Assembly (NCBI RefSeq): GCF_002305895.1 | Contig: NZ_CP022203.1 | Span: 1,962,501 to 2,026,500, forward strand | Direction of reading: 5' to 3' | Origin: Corallococcus macrosporus DSM 14697 | GTDB lineage: Bacteria; Myxococcota; Myxococcia; Myxococcales; Myxococcaceae | Length of the DNA: 64,000 nucleotides | Shown: positions 50,921 to 56,677 of the stretch, in pieces | Numbering within the stretch: position 1 is the first letter of the stretch | How the letters are laid out: every line of letters starts with the position of its first letter | Translations under genes and position numbers: made by a program | Notes under the pieces: model-generated | Seen by the model: the letters and a program-made list of their open reading frames with translations, nothing else | What the model was told of the DNA's origin: nothing | Databases searched by the model: none

Positions 50921-53900
50921 TCACTCTGAGCTGCGCTCCAGCGTGCGGCGGGCCTCCTTGAGGATGTCGTCCTCGGAGAGTTGATCGGTGCGAATCGCGG
51001 AGCGGTCCGCCCTCAGTTGTTGGACCTTCCCCTCGCGCAGGACATGGAACTGGCCCGGCTTCTGGCCGGGGAGTCGGGTCTCGGCGTCGATCCGGGCCTC
51101 GGTGAACATGGGCTTGAGCTTTTTCAGGGCGTTGTCTTCCTTCACCCCGCCGACGAACCAGGTGCGCACGTTCTCCCGGCACTTGTAATCCAGGTCACCC
51201 GGGCTCTGCGTGCCCAGCATGACGCCCAGCCCCGCCGAGCGCGCACGCTTGAGGAGGTTCTCCATCGGCTGCTTCGTCGCGGGCTTGCTCGTCGCGGGAA
51301 GGTAGATGTCGGCTTCGTCGAAGAGCACGACGGCCTGGAGCTTGGAAGCGGGGTGCTGGCTGGTCCAGCGGTTCGCTTCCAGCAGCAGTTGTGACACCCA
51401 GAAGCGGATGCGGTTGAGGTCCCCCAGGTACTTGGTGCTGATGATGCTCAAGCGCGTCTTGCCCGGCTTGCGCGCGGCGCCGAGCCCGAGCAGCTCATTC
51501 ATGTCCAGCCGTTCACCGCCCGTGGCCATCAGAGGGCGAAGGTCGAGCCGAAGCACTTCAAGGTCCTGAGCGAGCTTGGCGAAGGTCTTGGGCGGCAGGC
51601 CCCCCGTCTCCTGCCTGAGCGACTCGTCCTGTTCCGCGACGAACTTCTGGACCATTTCCAGCGTCAACTCGCTTCCCGGTGGCCGCTGGACCAGCAGGCG
51701 CAAGGCCTGGGTGAGCAGTGCTCGGGCCGCCTTGTCGTTGGGACTGGTCTTGTATTCGAGCATGCCCGCGATGGCGTCCGCGGCTTGCTGCACTCCCTGT
51801 TCACGCTCTTCGGGTGACTGGCTTTCGAGGCCGCGGGGAATCACCGGGATGGCCAGCGGCCGTCCGTCGGAGCGGCCTGGCGTGTAGAGCGCGACCTCGA
51901 CCCGCTCCCGCAGCAGGCGGCGTCGCTCGATGAGGGCGGGGTCGTCCAGGTGCTCCTCCCAGGACAGCTCCCGCGCGTAGGCGGCGAGGTCTCCCTTCCG
52001 GTCGACGAGGATGGCCGGAATGCCTCGGAGGAGCAGTTGCTCCAGGACGTTGAGCGCCAGTGTCGTCTTGCCGCTGCCGGTGGTGCCCAGGAAGGCGCTG
52101 TGGCGGGTCAGCTCGGAGGGCTCCACCGTCACGACCTGGCTGAACACACCTTCGGAGGTACCAATCCGCATGGGGCCCGTGAGTGTCTCCGTGGGGCGCG
52201 CGGAGGGGGGCGAGGCGGCTGTTGGCTCGTTGCCCTTGAAACCGATGGTGGCTTTCAGTCCCCGCGGCGGTGTCAGGGTGTGTCCCGTCAGCATCTGCGA
52301 CTCGACGGTGATGCCCGTCAGCGGGTCCTCCGCCAGGAGCTCGGCGCTGCCGTGCTGGTGCCCTTGCGAGACGGCGGGCTCGCGGTGTTCGCGCAGGTCC
52401 CTCGCTTCCCGGGCACTCGTTTCGGCACGCGTCGAGGGTTTGGACTTCGCTCCGGAGAGGACGTCGGGCGCGAGGGGGGCCCCATCAGGCTGCGTTCGCG
52501 GGCTGGCGAACAGCTCCGACTGCGCCTTCGTGGCGGTGCTCCTGGCGCCGACATTGCCCATGGGCGACGCGCCACCGTTCTTGAGCGCGGGCTTGTTTGG
52601 AGCCTTCGTTCCAGGGGACGGAGGCGTGGTGTCCGGCTTCTCCAGTCCCAGCATGTCGCCCACGGACTTGAGCCGGGTGATGGGGCGTGCCGTCCGGCTC
52701 CATTCCGTGAGCGCGGCCTCGCCCGCGTGCTTCTCGCGGAAGGTGCGCAGGGCCATGAGGTCCCGAAGCTCGGTGTCTCCGACGACGACCCGCCGTCCGC
52801 CCTTGCGGAGCAGCGCGCCCAGTTGCTCGGCGATGACACCGCCGGGCCGAGCGGGAGGGAAGTCCGTGGTCCGCACGATGACGGGGGTCTTCCCCGAGGC
52901 CTTCTTGAGGGCTTCGGTCATCTGCTTGCCGAGGCCGCCGCCTCGCGAGTCCTTTTCGCACAGCGCGATGAGGAGCCTGCTCCCTTCCGGATGGAGCTGG
53001 ACGTCCAGCATCTCCTTTTCCTTGGGCTTGACGTCGAAGCGCCTGGCGTCGCCGAGCTCCTTGCTTCCCGCCTCGATGGCCCAGGCCAGCAGCTCGGCGA
53101 CATCCGCGGGCTCCTCGGGCGGGTCGATGCGCAAGGTGGCGCGGAAGTCCGTCCACAGTTGGTCCATGTCCGGCTTCAGGACCTGGTGCCGCGGCTCCGC
53201 CGGGGTGTGGGGCTTCCCCAGCTCCTGGGGGCGCTGCAGCGGGAAGCTCGCGGGCAGCTTGCCGTCCTGGATGGCCCGGTCGCGGTAGCGGCGGCACTCG
53301 TTCAGGACGTCACGGGCGCGGTGCCCGCCAAGCACCTCGAAGCCGTCCGCGGGAATGGGCCAGGTCGGGTCCGACGGGGAGAGCGTGAACCCACGCTGCT
53401 CGAACAGGGCTTGCAGTCGGCGCGCCGCGAGGTCCCGGGCCGTGTCGGCGGTGACCGTGGCCTCGAGCATCACGGGCTCTGGGTCGTTCTCGATGCGGTC
53501 CACCGTGCTCCGGTTGAGCAGGGGCTTCATCTTCACCCAATAGTCCGTGAGGCAGCAGAAGACCACGACCGCGCGAGGCACCTTGCTCGCGATGGCCGCG
53601 AGGCTGTTCATCGCGCGCCGGAAGGAGTTCTCCATCTGCGGACGCTGCTCGAAGTCGCTGACGTCCTCGACCTGGTCCACGCACAGCACGAGCGCCTGTC
53701 CCAGGCCGCCCATCAGGCGCCCCAGGTGCTCCACCATTCGCGCCGGTGCGTCGTCGGCGGTCCGGGGAATGAGGTTGCCGATGACGCGCTGGTCCGCCTC
53801 GGACAGGCTCTCGCAGCGCAGCCAGTGGAAGATGCGGCGGTTGAGGCGGGGATCTCTCCGATGCAGGTAGATGAGGGCGCGCAGCAGGTCGACTTCCACG

Positions 53901-54445
53901 TCCCGGAAGCGCGGGTCCATCAGCAGCTCGTCCGCCACGACCCGGATGGTGCCGTGCAGCTCCTCGCCCTCCAGGATCTGCTCATCCTTGAGGTGCAGCG
54001 CGTAGGCGCTGGTGCACTGGGCCATCAGTGCATCCGACAGGTGCATCAGCCCGCTGTCGTCATCGTCGCCCGCCTCATCGAAGGGCTTGTCCAGGGAGTC
54101 GATGAGGTTGGACAGGATGTAGCGGTCGTACTGCGTCACGTCGACGGTCATCGGCATGTAGCCGACGAAGCCCTGGCGCTGCCCGTGGGCGGTGTTCCGG
54201 AAGGCACGAACCAGGTGCGTCTTGCCGCTGCCTGACTCACCGAGCAGGAGCAGCAGTTTGCCGGCGCTCGGAGGCGAGTCTGACGAGGCCTTGTCGAGCA
54301 GCCGCTTGAAGGCCCGTCGTGCCGGCGCGTTGAGGGTCTCCACGTCGTACGGGTCCGCCTGCCAGATGTGCTGGCCTTGTTCGACGCTGGTGAAGACCTC
54401 GCGGGAATCGTCGAGGAAGGGTTCGAGACGGGGGTCGTTGGCCAC
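50921..54445 (-). CDS. Large dual-ATPase protein: N-terminal AAA-type and C-terminal HerA/FtsK-like domains
   Basis: This 1174-residue protein has two separate P-loops. The first is LLLLLGESGSGKTHLVRAF (about residues 64-82) with Walker B ALVLCVDQVEDV near 255. The second is AFLGTTGSGKTTLALNVLEQ near 787 with LVDRKGDLAAY, Walker B VVLFDEADIYLP near 1040, then GLGVMLGTQSPGDLDYK, as in HerA/DUF853 DNA-pumping ATPases. Between them lie an alpha/beta segment (about 470-600) and a low-complexity linker (about 620-720). The GTG at 54445 has AGGAG six bases upstream. It is the third gene of an operon with a DUF559-like nuclease. I know no named system with this exact protein. Confidence 0.85.
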   Translation of the reverse strand: MANDPRLEPFLDDSREVFTSVEQGQHIWQADPYDVETLNAPARRAFKRLLDKASSDSPPSAGKLLLLLGESGSGKTHLVRAFRNTAHGQRQGFVGYMPMTVDVTQYDRYILSNLIDSLDKPFDEAGDDDDSGLMHLSDALMAQCTSAYALHLKDEQILEGEELHGTIRVVADELLMDPRFRDVEVDLLRALIYLHRRDPRLNRRIFHWLRCESLSEADQRVIGNLIPRTADDAPARMVEHLGRLMGGLGQALVLCVDQVEDVSDFEQRPQMENSFRRAMNSLAAIASKVPRAVVVFCCLTDYWVKMKPLLNRSTVDRIENDPEPVMLEATVTADTARDLAARRLQALFEQRGFTLSPSDPTWPIPADGFEVLGGHRARDVLNECRRYRDRAIQDGKLPASFPLQRPQELGKPHTPAEPRHQVLKPDMDQLWTDFRATLRIDPPEEPADVAELLAWAIEAGSKELGDARRFDVKPKEKEMLDVQLHPEGSRLLIALCEKDSRGGGLGKQMTEALKKASGKTPVIVRTTDFPPARPGGVIAEQLGALLRKGGRRVVVGDTELRDLMALRTFREKHAGEAALTEWSRTARPITRLKSVGDMLGLEKPDTTPPSPGTKAPNKPALKNGGASPMGNVGARSTATKAQSELFASPRTQPDGAPLAPDVLSGAKSKPSTRAETSAREARDLREHREPAVSQGHQHGSAELLAEDPLTGITVESQMLTGHTLTPPRGLKATIGFKGNEPTAASPPSARPTETLTGPMRIGTSEGVFSQVVTVEPSELTRHSAFLGTTGSGKTTLALNVLEQLLLRGIPAILVDRKGDLAAYARELSWEEHLDDPALIERRRLLRERVEVALYTPGRSDGRPLAIPVIPRGLESQSPEEREQGVQQAADAIAGMLEYKTSPNDKAARALLTQALRLLVQRPPGSELTLEMVQKFVAEQDESLRQETGGLPPKTFAKLAQDLEVLRLDLRPLMATGGERLDMNELLGLGAARKPGKTRLSIISTKYLGDLNRIRFWVSQLLLEANRWTSQHPASKLQAVVLFDEADIYLPATSKPATKQPMENLLKRARSAGLGVMLGTQSPGDLDYKCRENVRTWFVGGVKEDNALKKLKPMFTEARIDAETRLPGQKPGQFHVLREGKVQQLRADRSAIRTDQLSEDDILKEARRTLERSSE

Positions 54446-54465
54446 GGGGCGCTCCTGGGTTCGGG

Positions 54466-55467
54466 CTAGACGACAACGAAGTGGAAGCTGGCGCCGAAGG
54501 ACTGGACCTCGGATTCGGCCACGTCCTTCGGATCCATGGCGGACACGAGGTCCGCGCGCGTCAGGGACAACAGGCGGGTGCGGTTGGCTTCCAGGAGCGC
54601 CGCGTTGAAGGCCTCGCGGGTGCGCCACTCGGGTTGGAGGGCCTTCCACACGTGGGAGATGAAGACCTTGTTCGCGCCGAAGCGGCCCGTGGGCAGGTCG
54701 CGGGCGACCGACAGCACGCGCTCGGCGAAGGCGGCCGGGGCAGCCTGCGCCTCCGAGCCCGGCGCCGCTCGGACCTCCGGTTCATCCTCGGAAGCGTCGT
54801 CTGCCTGCGCGACAGCGAACCGCCGCAGCAGCGACAGCCTCACGACCTCCGCGTCCGCGCGGGAGGCGCCGGCCGCACGGGCCGCCAACTGCTCCACGCC
54901 CTTGCGCGGGTCCTTCGTCTCCGTGTCCAGCATCTTCCCGAGCAAGTGCGCCTGCACCGCGCTCAAGGTGAAGGGCCGGTCCGTCTCGACACCGAGCTCC
55001 CGCCACAAGAGCCGGTCCCGCGTCTGCGCCAGCGTGAGACCTTCCTCGGCATCCAGTCCGTGCTGTCGCTGGAGCGCGGCGGCGCGAACGCCGTCCGCGT
55101 CCTTCATCCGCGCCACCACGGCCTTCGAGGCCGGCAGGTCCAGGCTGAGCGCCACCAGGTGGGTCGCCTTCAGCTTCTGCCACGTCAGCCCGCGCGGCGG
55201 CTGGTCCAGGTGGAGGAAGCGCAGCACGGCCGTCCGCCCCGTGGGCGTCAGCTCCAGGCCGCTGCGTCCGCGCAGGGCCACCGTCCCACCGCCCAGCAGC
55301 GACTCCAGCAATGACTCGAAGCGGGCTTTCCATTCCGAGCGGCTGAGCCGGTGCTCCACGAAGGGCCGGAGCGCCGCCTCCAGTTCCTTGCGCGTCCCAC
55401 GCCGCTCACCGCGCGTCATGAGCCAGGACAAGGCAATGCCTGACAGCCGCTGCTCAGCGCTTCCCAT
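54466..55467 (-). CDS. Protein of unknown function with possible winged-helix ends
   Basis: This 333-residue protein begins with a region resembling a winged helix (ALSWLMTRGERRGTRKELEA through GLELTPTGRTAVLRFLHL). A helical middle follows, and a C-terminal ~85-residue segment (GANKVFISHVWKALQPEW, LSLTRADLVSAMDPKDVA, ASFHFVVV) also looks like a winged-helix or helix-turn-helix unit. It has no signal peptide or membrane helix. It overlaps the end of the nuclease gene by 14 bases and is followed 20 bases later by the ATPase gene, so all three should be made together. An adaptor or DNA-recognition role in the complex is inference only. Confidence 0.75.
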   Translation of the reverse strand: MGSAEQRLSGIALSWLMTRGERRGTRKELEAALRPFVEHRLSRSEWKARFESLLESLLGGGTVALRGRSGLELTPTGRTAVLRFLHLDQPPRGLTWQKLKATHLVALSLDLPASKAVVARMKDADGVRAAALQRQHGLDAEEGLTLAQTRDRLLWRELGVETDRPFTLSAVQAHLLGKMLDTETKDPRKGVEQLAARAAGASRADAEVVRLSLLRRFAVAQADDASEDEPEVRAAPGSEAQAAPAAFAERVLSVARDLPTGRFGANKVFISHVWKALQPEWRTREAFNAALLEANRTRLLSLTRADLVSAMDPKDVAESEVQSFGASFHFVVV

Positions 55468-56677
55468 TCGATGCGTCCTTCCCGGTGAGCTCACCCCTGC
55501 GGGTGGCAATCAACGTGTCGAGTGTTTCCAGAATCTCTTCCAGCCGCGTCACCACGTCGTCCGCGAGGAAGCGGACCACCCAGTAGCCCGCGCGCTGGAG
55601 GGCGACGTCCTTGCGCCGGTCCCGGCGGAAGCCATCCGGGCTGCGGAAGTGGAAGTAGCCGTCAATCTCCACGGCCAGGTGCAGCGCCCTGCAGAGCAGG
55701 TCCACCTCCAGCGCCCGGCCACCGTCACCCAGGTCCAACGTGTCATTGAGGACGAAGAGGCCCCGGGTGGGGGCATGCTCCTGGAGCCGGGCGTGCAGGA
55801 AGCGCTCCGCCTCGCTCCGCGCGCGGCCATTGGCTTCACGGGAGGCGGAGGCGATGGTGCGCACCGCTGATTCGTAGAGCGCGACCACCTGCGCGGACGA
55901 GCCCTCTTGCCGGAGCCGGGCGGCCGTGGAGGCCACCACCGCTTCGGGGAACTCGGGGGCATCCTCGTCGGGCGCCGGCTCCGCCAGGTCCAGCCGGCCC
56001 TCCCGCAGCATGGCGAGGGCATGCGACTCCTCGCGCCGGAGGTGCTCGGCGAGGACCTCGGTGGAGAGCACGCAGCCCGTGGTGAGCGCGGGGGCCGCGG
56101 AGCACAGCGCCGCGGCGGTCCTGAGCGCTCGGAAGTCGGAGGCGCTGGACCGGACGCGCAGGGCCGGCGTGTTGGCGGCGGGCACCATGGCCATCAACGC
56201 CTGGAGGGCCGGCAGCGGCGCTCGGCCGATGGCCTGGCCGACCACGTCCGGGAGGGCACCGGACGGCGTCGAGACGGGGCTCTCCAGGAGGGCCCGGCAC
56301 AGCTCCCAGGCCGCGGACTGGCCCTGCGGAGGCGTCAGGCCTTCCATCAACACCCGCCGCTGGTGCGCCGTCTTGCCCCGGAACTGGAGCATCCGGGCCT
56401 GCCCCTGGGGCTGTGAGCGAGCGACGAACGCCTCCGCGTCCCCCACCAGGTCCCGCTCCCTGGCGATCGCCGCCGCCCACGCGGAGACGACCGCCCGCAC
56501 GTCGTCGCCGTCCACGAGGACGACGCTCTGGCCCCGGCGCTGAAGCCATTCTGTCCAGACACGCAGCGCCCGCTCCGGTGGCCCGACGAGCGTGCTCAGC
56601 GTTGCAATGCCTTGCGCGCGTCTCCGGGCGTGGCGGTCCAGCGCGTCGAGAAGCGCGGCATCCAGTGTCGGCTGCAA
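55454..56677 (-). CDS. DUF559/Vsr-like endonuclease-domain protein
   Basis: This 407-residue protein has an N-terminal ~270-residue region rich in helices that I do not recognise. The C-terminal domain (about 285-395) has the PD-(D/E)XK pattern of DUF559 and Vsr-like nucleases: ARSEAERFLHARLQEH, then the acidic strand RALEVDLLCRALHLAVEIDG, then RRDRRKDVALQRAGYWVVRF. The E...D...E-x-D set and the late Asp/Lys suggest an intact site. The only start near the natural beginning is TTG (56677). It is the first gene of a minus-strand operon with the unknown adaptor-like protein and dual ATPase. Confidence 0.8.
   Translation of the reverse strand: MQPTLDAALLDALDRHARRRAQGIATLSTLVGPPERALRVWTEWLQRRGQSVVLVDGDDVRAVVSAWAAAIARERDLVGDAEAFVARSQPQGQARMLQFRGKTAHQRRVLMEGLTPPQGQSAAWELCRALLESPVSTPSGALPDVVGQAIGRAPLPALQALMAMVPAANTPALRVRSSASDFRALRTAAALCSAAPALTTGCVLSTEVLAEHLRREESHALAMLREGRLDLAEPAPDEDAPEFPEAVVASTAARLRQEGSSAQVVALYESAVRTIASASREANGRARSEAERFLHARLQEHAPTRGLFVLNDTLDLGDGGRALEVDLLCRALHLAVEIDGYFHFRSPDGFRRDRRKDVALQRAGYWVVRFLADDVVTRLEEILETLDTLIATRRGELTGKDASNGKR

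Follow-up and report, generated by a model that had tools for sequence, protein, structure and literature searches.

An ORC-HerA operon fixed in sampled Myxococcus genomes is a probable DNA interception system whose predicted nuclease carries a putative pseudo-AAA+ domain

Three adjacent genes in the 64,000-nucleotide stretch of DNA analysed here (the window), part of a host genome of one contig (8,973,512 bases), probably encode a machine that intercepts invading DNA, of the Orc/CDC6 and HerA/FtsK capture type, with a plug-in nuclease. Their products are a nuclease subunit (NUC), a winged-helix protein (WH) and a dual ATPase (ATP). "HerA/FtsK capture systems" were predicted as a computational class by Rakesh, Aravind and Krishnan in 2024 (NAR, PMC10853773), and because the operon shares its core domains with that class, its kind is not new. 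What is new here is the fixation of a system of the ORC-HerA capture class as a core locus of a bacterial genus, Myxococcus, among the genomes sampled; an apparently ATP-dead AAA+-fold domain carried by the nuclease, as judged from a structure model; one clade in which the nuclease has been lost; and the appearance of PtuA/PtuB in one genome. The initial annotation overlooked the AAA+-like N-terminal half of NUC and was not in a position to reveal the genus-wide fixation or the effector swap; its reading of the three proteins as a DNA-translocating, nuclease-armed complex is still the best inference.

Operon layout and linkage

NUC, WH and ATP follow one another in that order on the minus strand (Table 1), the first two frames overlapping by 14 nt and a 20-nt gap separating WH from ATP, in exact agreement with the tight three-gene operon originally described. 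By operon similarity, the nearest named relatives are Myxococcus.

Table 1. Genes and domains of the operon, in positions of the window
Feature	Position	Strand	Basis or remark
NUC, 407 aa, nuclease subunit	55454..56677	-	TTG start; DUF559 PF04480 E=2.6e-8 (Pfam)
NUC residues 1-235, AAA+-fold domain, degenerate P-loop	55973..56677	-	AlphaFold2 model and structure comparison
NUC residues 285-395, DUF559 / Vsr-like EDxHD endonuclease domain	55493..55825	-	structure Z-scores, profiles, catalytic residues
WH, 333 aa, winged-helix protein	54466..55467	-	ATG start
WH residues 1-84, N-terminal winged helix	55216..55467	-	model pLDDT mostly 83-95
WH residues 244-330, probable second winged helix	54478..54738	-	low-confidence model, pLDDT about 50-73
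ATP, 1174 aa, dual ATPase	50921..54445	-	GTG start
ATP residues 40-400, ORC/Cdc6-like AAA+ domain	53246..54328	-	AAA_22 E=1.6e-10, AAA_16 E=2.1e-10 (Pfam)
ATP residues 440-605, conserved domain after AAA+	52631..53128	-	alignment
ATP residues 606-755, variable low-complexity linker	52181..52630	-	gap-rich, unconserved in alignment
ATP residues 756-1150, HerA/FtsK-type translocase domain	50996..52180	-	DUF87 E=3.8e-9 (Pfam)

Distribution counts come from a WH profile search of 195 Myxococcota genomes, and copies in other phyla are individual records. The operon was detected in 63 of the 195, and by hand tally the order NUC-WH-ATP is kept at 60 of the 66 Myxococcota loci with readable upstream DNA, a pattern at odds with the possibility, raised in advance, that the genes stand apart in most genomes. 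The six exceptions are L097, L112 and L113, two loci of genome G132 and one locus of genome G131. L097, L112 and L113, which lack NUC, form a monophyletic trio in the tree, and the same genomes carry a complete second copy; the nuclease is lost in this one clade. The same gene order recurs in single copies from Tsukamurella (L019) and Nonomuraea (L021), both Actinomycetota, and from the alphaproteobacterium Methylobacterium (L020). ATPs from the distant copies are 37-46% identical to that of Tsukamurella and about 25% identical to that of the window.

In the Tsukamurella record (L019:4888-14951), labelled "plasmid 22", rpsQ and rplN flank a segment that holds the operon together with a VapBC pair and a DEAD/DEAH helicase; operons for ribosomal proteins are present on this 224-kb "plasmid", which is probably a piece of chromosome. 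Another record, "Comamonas sp. KCTC 72670" (L004), shows the Myxococcus operon and synteny with 71-94% identity to the window genes, and is probably mislabelled. In a MAG (L011:2541-8117), a single 1.8-kaa open frame spans NUC and ATP, and WH is read in a different frame; apparently the stop codon of NUC has been lost or a frameshift has occurred. L075 has a similar layout.

The linkage bears directly on whether the three genes lack a joint function, as neighbours unrelated to one another or as the decaying remnant of a mobile element. The few copies without NUC would fit such an account, but it is refuted at the level of sequence by a gene order kept across phyla, by overlapping frames, by intact catalytic motifs (see below) and by pairwise dN/dS values of 0.17-0.44 for NUC, WH and ATP, well below 1 and indicative of purifying selection; we give it almost no weight.

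A dual ATPase joining ORC/Cdc6-like and HerA/FtsK-type domains

Both P-loops previously noted as intact in ATP were found, GESGSGKT at residue 69 and GTTGSGKT at residue 787, and Pfam matches to AAA_22/AAA_16 and to DUF87, all scoring better than the cut-off, bear out the proposed combination of an AAA region with a HerA-like end. In the AAA+ domain, K75 and T76 of Walker A, D257, E260 and the sensor-2 residue R378 are present in all 55 distinct ATP sequences, as are the Walker A motif, D1043-E1044, R1067/R1069 and the sensor Q1080 of the HerA domain. Because both sets of ATPase motifs are invariant in these sequences, both motors are probably active. The AAA+ domain is assigned to the ORC branch by its sensor-2 motif pattern together with general AAA matches, rather than by a tree.

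The domain that follows the AAA+ region keeps C496, R525, P531 and G550-R551 in 55 of 55 sequences and returned no significant Pfam family or PDB match. Between the ORC and HerA portions lies a linker that differs strongly among relatives in both length and sequence; it is shortest in L016 and longest in L004. The top PADLOC match of ATP is Mad8 (mad8, E=1.2e-24), with HerA models next; ATP scores far under the NCBIfam HerA cut-offs.

A predicted nuclease with a pseudo-AAA+ half

The C-terminal DUF559-type nuclease of the initial annotation is recovered by its Pfam match, and comparison of the domain with VIA-align gives Z-scores of 10.6 to NGO0050 (3hrl), 10.0 to I-Bth0305I and 8.2 to Vsr, alongside profile matches to 3hrl (E=9e-10) and 3r3p (E=0.0016). 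This places it among the Vsr-like/EDxHD members of the PD-(D/E)XK superfamily. Far from lacking its acidic residues on alignment, NUC retains the catalytic E, D, ExDG, H and D, along with the surrounding R/K/D/Q residues, in every one of 82 distinct sequences, and from these conserved residues it is predicted to be an active nuclease.

The N-terminal domain is modelled with an AAA+ fold (AlphaFold2 from 12 sequences, mean pLDDT 80), for which VIA-align gives a Z-score of 10.3 to TnsC over 165 residues, 9.4 to RdrA and about 9 to ORC; Foldseek alone gave weak matches. The P-loop position reads GPPERAL as against the GxxGxGKT pattern, and Walker A was found in none of the 82 distinct NUC sequences, G-P(-P) alone being conserved there. 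Profile comparisons of the NUC N-terminus with ATP, and with the extension of a PtuA protein described below, were not significant, so any kinship with either is one of fold only.

WH, proposed earlier as a possible winged-helix protein, is supported as such by its structure model and by fold comparison, the N-terminal winged helix scoring Z 9-10 to winged helices of the MarR/PadR type, of MukF and of Hel308. Residues 244-330, the probable second winged helix, are in the alignment the segment most similar to the distant copies. No family match to WH was found in Pfam, PADLOC or NCBIfam.

An apparent effector swap in one genome

One fragmented genome (G131) carries a Septu variant on two contigs. 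On contig C88 (L107:3467-5593), directly after an ATP homologue comes a protein of 709 aa. Its residues 303-706 match PtuA (E=6e-90), and its N-terminal ORC-like extension, homologous to the ORC domain of ATP, reaches 37 bits against the ATP profile, compared with at most 2.8 for 1000 shuffles. On contig C7 (L133:1781-4899), ATP, an ORC-like plus PtuA protein and PtuB (E=6e-45) stand in a tight row. The ORC-like AAA+ extension at the N-terminus of the G131 PtuA is about 300 aa long. A Septu effector thus stands in the place of NUC after the WH/ORC-HerA core, which apparently takes a different nuclease in this genome. Taken with the clade that lacks NUC, the G131 PtuA/PtuB arrangement is consistent with a core of WH and ATP to which the nuclease appears to be a replaceable plug-in.

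Comparison with known systems

No profile library among Pfam, PADLOC and NCBIfam places all three proteins together in a known system. The earlier statement that the operon matches no nameable system holds insofar as no PADLOC system fits, but the class predicted in 2024 has the same core domains. As laid out in the main text of that study (PMC10853773), the Orc/CDC6 type comprises an Orc/CDC6 AAA+ domain, an inactive REase (iREase) inserted after the AAA+, an active REase, HerA/FtsK and a wHTH, and capture systems are proposed to intercept invading DNA while it is being replicated, transferred or packaged. A 2026 paper (PMC12839542) returns to the theme. The window operon has four of these five features, namely the Orc/CDC6 AAA+, a HerA/FtsK domain with arginine finger and Gln sensor, a nuclease and a wHTH. 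Where the class has its inactive REase, ATP has the conserved domain of residues 440-605, and from its position and motif pattern we infer that this domain may be the counterpart of the iREase. The main text of PMC10853773 names two active REase families for the class, one of them common to AbiJ, and makes no mention of DUF559/Vsr-type nucleases, PtuA/Septu or myxobacteria. A further difference is that the window operon, rather than being a mobile neighbourhood, is fixed in the core genome.

Septu (PtuA-PtuB) and retron type I-A effectors resemble the G131 variant, in which PtuA and PtuB follow a core of the WH/ORC-HerA type and PtuA has the extra N-terminal ORC-like AAA+ domain; the combination of PtuA with PtuB was seen in the G131 variants only, and PADLOC gives none at the window operon, which is not a Septu system. 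MADS is defined by the set mad1-8. The HerA half of ATP matches best to Mad8, an anti-phage component, but in a PADLOC scan of the three proteins no other mad model was matched except a P-loop-only mad3 (E=3e-4), and we rejected membership. HerA-NurA, HerA-DUF4297 and HerA-SIR2 likewise pair a HerA-type translocase with a nuclease or effector, but in the present operon an ORC-like AAA+ domain is fused to HerA, the nuclease combines a DUF559/Vsr-like domain with a pseudo-AAA+ half, and WH is a third subunit. NUC matches only DUF559/MTES_1575 in Pfam; there is no NurA partner, and HerA-NurA membership was rejected. DndFGH, according to the main text of PMC10853773, also combines a HerA/FtsK domain, a nuclease and a wHTH without a modification gene of its own; it was rejected on the grounds that PADLOC gives no DndF or DndG match, the distant copies showing a weak match to the DndH HerA domain (E=6e-7). 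No relevant publication came up in a literature search pairing DUF559 with HerA or DUF87.

Fixation, divergence and genomic setting

The operon is present in 27 of 27 Myxococcus genomes sampled and, by our own count, in 16 of 16 sampled Corallococcus genomes. Every Myxococcus copy with enough flank adjoins pabB-pabA-pabC (names assigned by sequence reading), and part of this setting is kept in Corallococcus. In the same 27 Myxococcus genomes, CBASS SMODS genes (19 genomes) and type I HSDR_N genes (21 genomes) are patchy and scattered. Most genomes hold a single copy of the operon and several hold two. Relative to pabB, its dN is higher by a factor of about 1.8-2.6; it peaks in NUC and exceeds that of most neighbouring genes. 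Searches for close relatives found none in phages, none in viral contigs (two weak P-loop-only matches at most) and none on plasmids beyond three records, two of them apparently chromosomal. No linked DNA-modification gene was recognised at the operon.

Known defence genes, for which a search of the vicinity had been proposed, were mostly absent from a scan of the operon neighbours, with one CBASS neighbour: at L097:14086-17050 (G092), a CBASS cyclase and E1-E2 genes adjoin the NUC-less WH-ATP copy. In the pooled flanks of related loci, one protein matches PtuA (E=2e-167) and another PDC-M20B (E=6e-124).

These data bear most heavily on the main rival explanation, a housekeeping complex for DNA-end processing or chromosome maintenance, analogous to archaeal HerA-NurA, that would serve repair, recombination or segregation in fruiting myxobacteria. 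Fixation in both genera beside conserved neighbours, purifying selection on a mostly single-copy locus, and the absence of phage copies and near absence from plasmids are all what this explanation would predict. We nevertheless consider it unlikely, as many other Myxococcota lack the operon, copies in distant phyla are sporadic, several genomes carry two copies, NUC is lost in one clade, a Septu effector takes the nuclease's place in one genome, the locus is related to defence modules, divergence outpaces most neighbouring genes, and a NurA partner is missing.

Discussion

We favour anti-invader DNA interception. In our model, WH would recognise or load on foreign DNA together with the ORC-like AAA+ ring formed by ATP, and the HerA/FtsK ring, joined to the ORC module through the flexible linker, would reel in the duplex. 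The modelled fold of the NUC N-terminus suggests that this ATP-dead domain would dock as an inactive protomer of the ORC ring, leaving the Vsr-like domain to cut the threaded DNA. The parts, their conservation, the intact motifs, the linkage and the swap are evident from the sequences themselves; we infer the ring assembly, docking, translocation, target and sparing of self DNA.

Several observations argue for interception: the conservation of NUC-WH-ATP order across three phyla; the invariance in 55 ATPs of both ATPase sites and of the HerA arginine and Gln sensor; the invariant nuclease residues and absent Walker A in 82 NUCs, with an AAA+ fold by structure comparison; the proximity of the HerA half to Mad8 and the match of the core domains to the published class; and the Septu effector swap, the one CBASS-adjacent copy and the fast divergence, fastest in NUC. 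Against it stand the fixation in all sampled Myxococcus and the position at the pab cluster in every copy with enough flank, unlike most defence systems; the lack of close phage or viral relatives, the few plasmid records and the absence of a recognised linked modification gene; and a Septu link drawn from two contigs of one genome.

The invader need not be a phage. The operon might instead be a domesticated core trait that keeps out, in a restriction-like manner, plasmids, integrative elements or the DNA of other cells met in predation or fruiting-body contact. HerA/FtsK domains are part of systems that pump DNA in conjugation and segregation, and the capture class is proposed to intercept DNA in transfer, as the main text of PMC10853773 has it; fixation in social, DNA-releasing predators also accords with this idea. 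Such a target is a prediction, and the operon also occurs in non-myxobacteria; we judge this reading very unlikely.

Returning to anti-invader interception, we tentatively extend it to a plug-in immune platform, in which the WH and ORC-HerA core would take interchangeable effectors through ORC-like docking domains, active or ATP-dead, accepting sometimes a Vsr-like nuclease and sometimes the whole Septu pair, and would serve as a fixed core-genome immune organ in social myxobacteria. This extension is possible, though we would not yet count on it. The pseudo-AAA+ domain of NUC and the ORC-like domain of PtuA give it the form of a concrete hypothesis, that different effectors attach to one DNA pump, and a HerA-controlled Septu effector, if true, would be unexpected. 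For a class predicted in 2024, our literature search found no experimentally studied member; in Myxococcus the operon is fixed, syntenic and intact, so knockouts would be straightforward. Most likely, NUC, WH and ATP jointly seize and destroy foreign DNA.
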